From the NCBI GenBank assembly GCA_949430125.1, contig CASQMQ010000061.1, forward strand, positions 1 to 42,257: a stretch of 42,257 bases of DNA, written 5' to 3'. The notes beneath the pieces were generated by a model. It worked only from the letters and a program-made list of their open reading frames with translations, made no database searches and was not told where the DNA came from. The stretch is from an uncultured Pseudomonadales bacterium (lineage in GTDB: Bacteria; Pseudomonadota; Gammaproteobacteria; Pseudomonadales; Pseudohongiellaceae). Positions 37,384 through 38,535 of this stretch are shown here, piece after piece; within the stretch, counting starts at the first letter, position 1, and each line of letters begins with the position of its first letter. A program made the position numbers and the translations under genes.

Positions 37384-37409
37384 TAGCCTCTCCTAATTAT
37401 TTGGGTAAG

Positions 37410-37562
37410 TTAGAAAACTACAAAACTGAGAGACGCCAATTCACAGTTGGTCAGTTGCATCGAGGCGATACCGGTTTCACGGTGGCTGACCACGTATTTT
37501 CCTTCTAGAATTGCTACGGCGCAGCCATTGCAAGCGACATCGAGCTGCTCAGCAGCCAACAT
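37410..37562 (-). pseudogene. Relic of a cytochrome c heme-binding segment
   Basis: A 50-residue minus-strand reading frame, too short for the ORF track, ends 27 bases before the cytochrome-monooxygenase start. Its middle reads YVVSHRETGIASMQL, which lines up with CVVCHREGGIGPMEL of the neighbouring gene, and the preceding NGCAVAIL aligns with SGHVASII. The match is also visible in the DNA (CGTGGTC and CACCGTGAA are shared in register). Both heme cysteines are replaced, by Tyr and Ser, so it cannot bind heme covalently through this motif. It is best read as the remains of a duplicated cytochrome gene. A working small protein is possible but I see no ribosome-binding site. Confidence 0.55.
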
Positions 37563-37630
37563 GGTCCTGCTGAGAAATCACTGAGCCAGCGTCAGGCCGA
37601 CAATCATTGGTGAGCGCTGCGGCGCCATAG

Positions 37631-37652: not shown

Positions 37653-37797
37653 GGGGGACAATCCAAGGCGCTATAACATATACAACGTTTGGACTTTAAT
37701 GTTTCTAAAGACATTTGTCCAATGGCTTTTCTCGGAAATAGAGCGATCTTTCAAGCCCTAGCTGAGGTGCAGTCAGCCACTTTTTGGGCTTGTCTGA

Positions 37798-38535
37798 TCA
37801 GGTGACCTTGCTGGTCGCTTTCGCTAGATCTGCCGCATGCTGCAGATGGGTCAGCCGGCCGAGCTGTTGTAATGACGTCAAGTGTGAATAAATCAGGGGC
37901 AGTAATCCCCGTTCGCGCAGTTCCTGAAATTCATCATTACTGAGTTTTTCAAGCGCATCCTCATCTATCATATACATTCCCTCCACTTCATATTTTGGGG
38001 AGCTCTCTGTATGTTGCAGTTTAAGTGGGCGCGAGGTGAGCAGTCGTTTTTCGGCCAGGTAGCGGCACAGTGCAATAGACTGCACGGATTGCTGAGTTAC
38101 TCTGACCACGTGATCAATACGCTTATTTAAGTAGTCTGTCGGCAGACCATCGCTCCGGTACAAGGGTTCGCCGACGGTTTCACTCAGCAGCGGACTCTGT
38201 TCATCGATGGCTATATCTGCCTCGTTGCTGTCAGGATCCAGTCGACTCACGGATAGCGGCGCAAGGGTGAAACTTGCTGGTATGAAAACCGGCTGCCATT
38301 CGAGTGTCTGACAATAGAGATTAACGCCCTTGTTCAAGCCCATCATAGCGCCCGGCACAAAATCTCCGGTCTTCTTGTTTCTGATAAAAACCAGCGGGAA
38401 CTCCGTAGCCAACTCATAGAATTCTTGGAACACCACTGGAACAAAATTCTCTGCTTTATGGCTTGTGAAATCTTTTGGCTCGCTCAAGCAAAGCTTGCCG
38501 TGTTTCTCGAAATTAAGAAGAACCGGTTCAGACAT
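37798..38535 (-). CDS. SapC family protein
   Basis: 245 residues matching the SapC family (PF07277, first named in the Campylobacter S-layer locus). The typical core is visible: FYELATEFPLVFIRN, then KKTGDFVPGAMMGLNKGVNLY and WQPVFIPASFTLAPLSV, with DEQSPLLSE and the later DEDALEKLSNDEFQELRERGLL. It has no signal peptide or membrane segment, so probably cytoplasmic. SapC genes commonly sit beside tryptophan-halogenase-like flavoproteins and TonB receptors in Proteobacteria, as here. The biochemical role is not known. It follows the DUF6445 gene by 49 bases. Confidence 0.88.
   Translation of the reverse strand: MSEPVLLNFEKHGKLCLSEPKDFTSHKAENFVPVVFQEFYELATEFPLVFIRNKKTGDFVPGAMMGLNKGVNLYCQTLEWQPVFIPASFTLAPLSVSRLDPDSNEADIAIDEQSPLLSETVGEPLYRSDGLPTDYLNKRIDHVVRVTQQSVQSIALCRYLAEKRLLTSRPLKLQHTESSPKYEVEGMYMIDEDALEKLSNDEFQELRERGLLPLIYSHLTSLQQLGRLTHLQHAADLAKATSKVT

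Follow-up and report, generated by a model that had tools for sequence, protein, structure and literature searches.

Between a SapC-family gene and a cytochrome gene on the minus strand of the window (the whole stretch of 42,257 nucleotides analysed here) lies an open frame of 50 codons, MLAAEQLDVACNGCAVAILEGKYVVSHRETGIASMQLTNCELASLSFVVF, read from 37562 to 37410. Is this short frame a gene, a piece of DNA kept for another role, or what is left of a gene? The initial annotation had taken it for a decayed duplicate of the heme-binding segment of the next gene, pointing either to a former tandem cytochrome gene or to a small product kept for other reasons. The gene order on the minus strand is DUF6445, SapC, relic, cytochrome, 306-aa gene and TonB-dependent receptor, and the features of the locus, all on that strand, are as follows.

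39300-38734, minus strand: DUF6445 gene
37798-38535, minus strand: SapC-family gene (Pfam SapC, E=1.5e-56), the upstream synteny anchor; order the same in L004-L007, L009, L010 and G054
37672-37739, minus strand: conserved promoter-like block upstream of the relic, common to L009; presumed promoter function
37563-37628, minus strand: putative decayed start and signal-peptide region of the relic, MAPQRSPMIVGLTLAQ-stop-FLSRT, in the same frame upstream of the open frame; a weak, tentative assignment
37410-37562, minus strand: 50-codon open frame, whole in the window and G050 alone; L004, L005 and L007 have it broken, and L006 lacks this ATG
37443-37547, minus strand: recognisable core of the relic, QLDVACNGCAVAILEGKYVVSHRETGIASMQLTNC, which aligns with the heme segment in intact members of the family, matches the family profile and precedes the same gene in six species
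37485-37496, minus strand: former heme motif CxxC(H), reading TAC GTG GTC AGC (Tyr-Val-Val-Ser)
37384-37412, minus strand: conserved ribosome-binding-site block before the intact gene, AATAATTAGGAGAGGCTA, identical in five of the six relic species, one base off in G050 and similar in L009
36019-37383, minus strand: intact cytochrome gene, 454 aa, with the motif CVVCH (Pfam Cytochrom_C, E=6.7e-4) and the codon-position pattern 60/24/219
35962-35042, minus strand: 306-aa gene
34157-31632, minus strand: TonB-dependent receptor gene

The stretch is very probably what remains of the 5' end of a former gene of the cytochrome family, lying between SapC and the present cytochrome and having no protein function now.

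Resemblance to the cytochrome heme segment

A local alignment of the relic with the adjacent cytochrome gene at the DNA level gave a score of 30; of 2,000 dinucleotide shuffles, 7 did as well. Because the significance of this comparison with the neighbour was modest, we used a family profile made from 128 intact cytochrome heme segments of relatives, leaving out the window's own gene. The profile matched residues 6-40 of the frame with 21.1 bits; when the 414-base intergenic stretch was dinucleotide-shuffled 3,000 times, no shuffle scored as high (maximum 9.8). The same profile also matched the homologous stretches of L007, L005, L006 and L004 at the same place, more weakly than in the window. 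A Pfam search of the 50-codon frame gave no match. The only moderate DNA similarity to the neighbour would fit a chance resemblance to a heme segment, but the profile test and the matches in the relatives' homologous DNA make chance hardly credible; judged from these comparisons, the resemblance is real. The likeness of YVVSHRETGIASMQL to CVVCHREGGIGPMEL of the next gene, on which the initial annotation was built, is likewise confirmed.

The window reads YVVSH at the former heme motif, its two heme cysteine codons now being TAC (Tyr) and AGC (Ser); the loss of both cysteines had been noticed initially. The second codon is AGC in the relatives as well, or GGC in L006. None of the six relic-bearing species has a cysteine at either heme-binding place, and the CxxCH motif of a functional c-type cytochrome is absent. 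About 35 of approximately 450 residues are left.

Decay of the frame in related genomes

Relic DNA is present at length in six of the 84 genomes of the genus, namely the window, G035, G050, G082, G013 and G040; judging by agreement in length and identity, we took G035, G082, G013 and G040 as the genomes of L007, L005, L004 and L006, respectively, in all four of which the relic sits between SapC and the cytochrome. In L007 a nonsense codon interrupts the frame at residue 11. L005 lacks 31 bp that in the longer form lie between two TGGCTGC repeats, and the ATG is gone with them; L004 combines a similar deletion with a frameshift and an internal stop, and L006 has no matching start. The ATG that opens the 50-codon frame is not conserved across the six species, and indels of 12-31 bp inside the relic are tolerated.

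The variable sites of the relic were distributed 12/14/11 by codon position in five species, and 17/21/15 in a fresh alignment with G050 added, as against 60/24/219 in the intact cytochrome gene and 36/15/84 in the SapC gene. Comparisons taking in L004, L005 or L006 gave pN/pS values of about 0.55-1.6 for the relic. The even spread over the codon positions, together with the frames broken in relatives, argues that there is no selection for a protein. As far as substitutions tell, the frame is without sign of purifying selection, except between the window and G050, where three changes, all synonymous and with no other change beside them, are too few to weigh.

These data bear on the small product kept for other reasons, a candidate that we rejected on the codon positions and pN/pS. 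A small peptide or translated leader with some other role could account for the open frames of the window and G050 and their exclusively synonymous changes, but three relatives (L004, L005 and L007) have broken frames and L006 a different one, the codon-position pattern is flat and Pfam has no match to the frame, all of which makes this role very unlikely.

The locus and the cytochrome family in other genomes

The initial annotation proposed looking for a full second cytochrome gene at homologous loci. None stands at the relic position in the seven genomes with this gene order, window included. L009 and L010 have the order DUF6445-SapC-cytochrome-306aa-TonB with neither relic nor second gene. 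L009 aligns to the 37739-37672 block with a local score of 39 (0 of 1,000 shuffles reach it; maximum 37), and it keeps both this upstream block and the ribosome-binding block, the relic-sized DNA between them being missing. In G054, a distant relative, DUF6445 and SapC are directly followed by a complete 468-aa cytochrome at the site of the window's relic, and no other cytochrome stands behind SapC there. A quick tree of 133 proteins puts this cytochrome, on a long branch, in the other major clade, and puts that of the window in a 15-member clade with L004-L017. The 306-aa gene was not found within the 9-kb stretch of G054, and between 23 and 86 of 500 shuffles reach the similarity of the window and G054 leaders, so that a shared promoter is not clearly significant. 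The G054 gene could be the ancestor of the relic or have arrived independently.

L007 and the window are 97-99% alike over SapC and the relic and only 84% alike in DNA over the cytochrome and the 306-aa gene. G050 resembles L007 in this pattern (cytochrome 86% identical in protein over 99 residues). Since the L007 cassette is divergent while the DNA upstream is near-identical, exchange at the boundary seems to occur, and the pattern has the look of allelic exchange whose breakpoint falls where the cytochrome gene starts (window 37384; L007:3000; L142:299). In G050 the relic also precedes the cytochrome, and the DNA further upstream is not SapC (L142, that is G050 C7, 616-2581); the next gene there reads like a cysteinyl-tRNA synthetase, and either the locus is rearranged or the contig misjoined.

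Pfam matches to the intact cytochrome are weak and confined to its N-terminal third, and a PDB sequence search with it returned nothing. The C-terminal two thirds, with motifs such as PHGHLR and WHHSHLYE, had no Pfam, NCBIfam or PDB sequence match and may form a metal-binding enzyme domain. Consecutive cytochrome copies, two to five per locus and five in L039, occur in the relatives L018, L020, L023, L039 and L067; the three to five successive paralogues in these relatives are about 60-65% identical to the gene of the window. The assemblies of L004-L007 carry a tandem cytochrome pair elsewhere (contigs L070, L058, L043 and L038). One copy of the pair at L070:1325-2655 matches in two pieces and its frame ends early, which suggests either that the family has another, younger pseudogene here or that the assembly is wrong. 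In the window's own genome, 69% complete, 17 sequences match the cytochrome, mostly distantly.

Origin and standing of the fragment

Over 26 codons, the relic is identical to L016 and L028 at 55 of 78 bases, to G054 at 52 and to the adjacent cytochrome at 47, and it has MQLTN with the other paralogues, not MELSS. This placement is an identity ranking only, as 26 codons cannot resolve a tree, and it does not settle the source because relic and neighbour have both changed; it leans towards a paralogue other than the neighbour. Of the duplicate proposed initially, the decayed family copy stands, and this copy need not descend from the next gene itself.

Two origins fit such a copy. The older cytochrome adjacent to SapC might have been displaced by a cytochrome-306aa-TonB cassette, its 5' end being left in front, an origin to which we give somewhat less than an even chance. 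The arrangement in G054, where the cytochrome behind DUF6445-SapC belongs to the other major clade and the 9-kb stretch yielded no 306-aa gene, points this way, as does the exchange at the boundary indicated by the divergent L007 cassette; but L009 and L010 have the cassette without the relic, the leader similarity to G054 is not clearly significant and the G054 gene sits on a long branch. The neighbouring cytochrome gene might instead have been duplicated locally in tandem, the upstream copy then decaying; this would agree with the frequency of tandem copies in the family and with the position of the relic, immediately upstream on the same strand. The slightly better identity of other paralogues and the MQLTN sequence speak against it, and we regard it as possible but rather doubtful.

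The fragment probably belongs to the 5' leader of the intact gene, because it lies between the conserved upstream block and the ribosome-binding site. This position, and a core conserved above the DNA just upstream (88% versus 75% between the window and L006), would suit DNA retained because it encodes a regulatory leader RNA for the cytochrome. However, an Rfam search of the leader found no match up to E=1, the relic tolerates its inner indels, and L009 lacks it yet keeps the flanking blocks; we consider such a role unlikely. The core may be better conserved because the start of the gene is near or because the leader has some function. That the relic was co-opted both as regulatory 5' leader of the surviving cytochrome and as homology anchor for cassette exchange between strains seems more unlikely still.

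The best reading is the fragment of a decayed gene. A gene of the cytochrome family would once have been located after SapC and before the present cytochrome, and most of it, about 1.2 kb, would have been lost by deletion of its 3' part. Its 5' end would have stayed behind, with the old promoter region on one side and the surviving gene's ribosome-binding site on the other, presumably being transcribed within the leader of the intact gene, while the remnant drifts through substitutions, small deletions and stop codons. This reading is favoured by the profile match, the presence of the relic before the same gene in its six carriers, the lesions in L004, L005 and L007, the flat codon-position pattern beside those of the cytochrome and SapC genes, the pN/pS values, the tandem copies common in the same genomes and relatives, and the complete paralogue of G054 immediately behind DUF6445-SapC. 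Against it stand the lack of a full second gene in all relatives with the relic, the absence of both relic and second gene from L009 and L010, the better-conserved core, and the synonymous changes between the window and G050. The former cytochrome gene suggested by the initial annotation is supported by the family-profile homology, the broken frames and the neutral pattern.

As a gene relic the fragment is ordinary. Tandem arrays are frequent in its family, and a literature search found nothing relevant. The relic gives a clean small example of gene loss within a paralogue-rich cytochrome family and accounts for an otherwise odd short open frame, which should not be annotated as a gene; beyond this warning and this example, its significance is local.

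Like bacterial pseudogene fragments of tandem paralogue families, the relic is truncated, has lost active-site residues, has broken frames in relatives and shows neutral substitutions; it differs from them in nothing of note and happens to sit in the leader of an intact family member. With the 454-aa cytochrome c-type family of the genus (Pfam Cytochrom_C, weak) it shares heme-segment sequence, position and strand, but the two heme cysteines are lost, as is about 90% of the protein.
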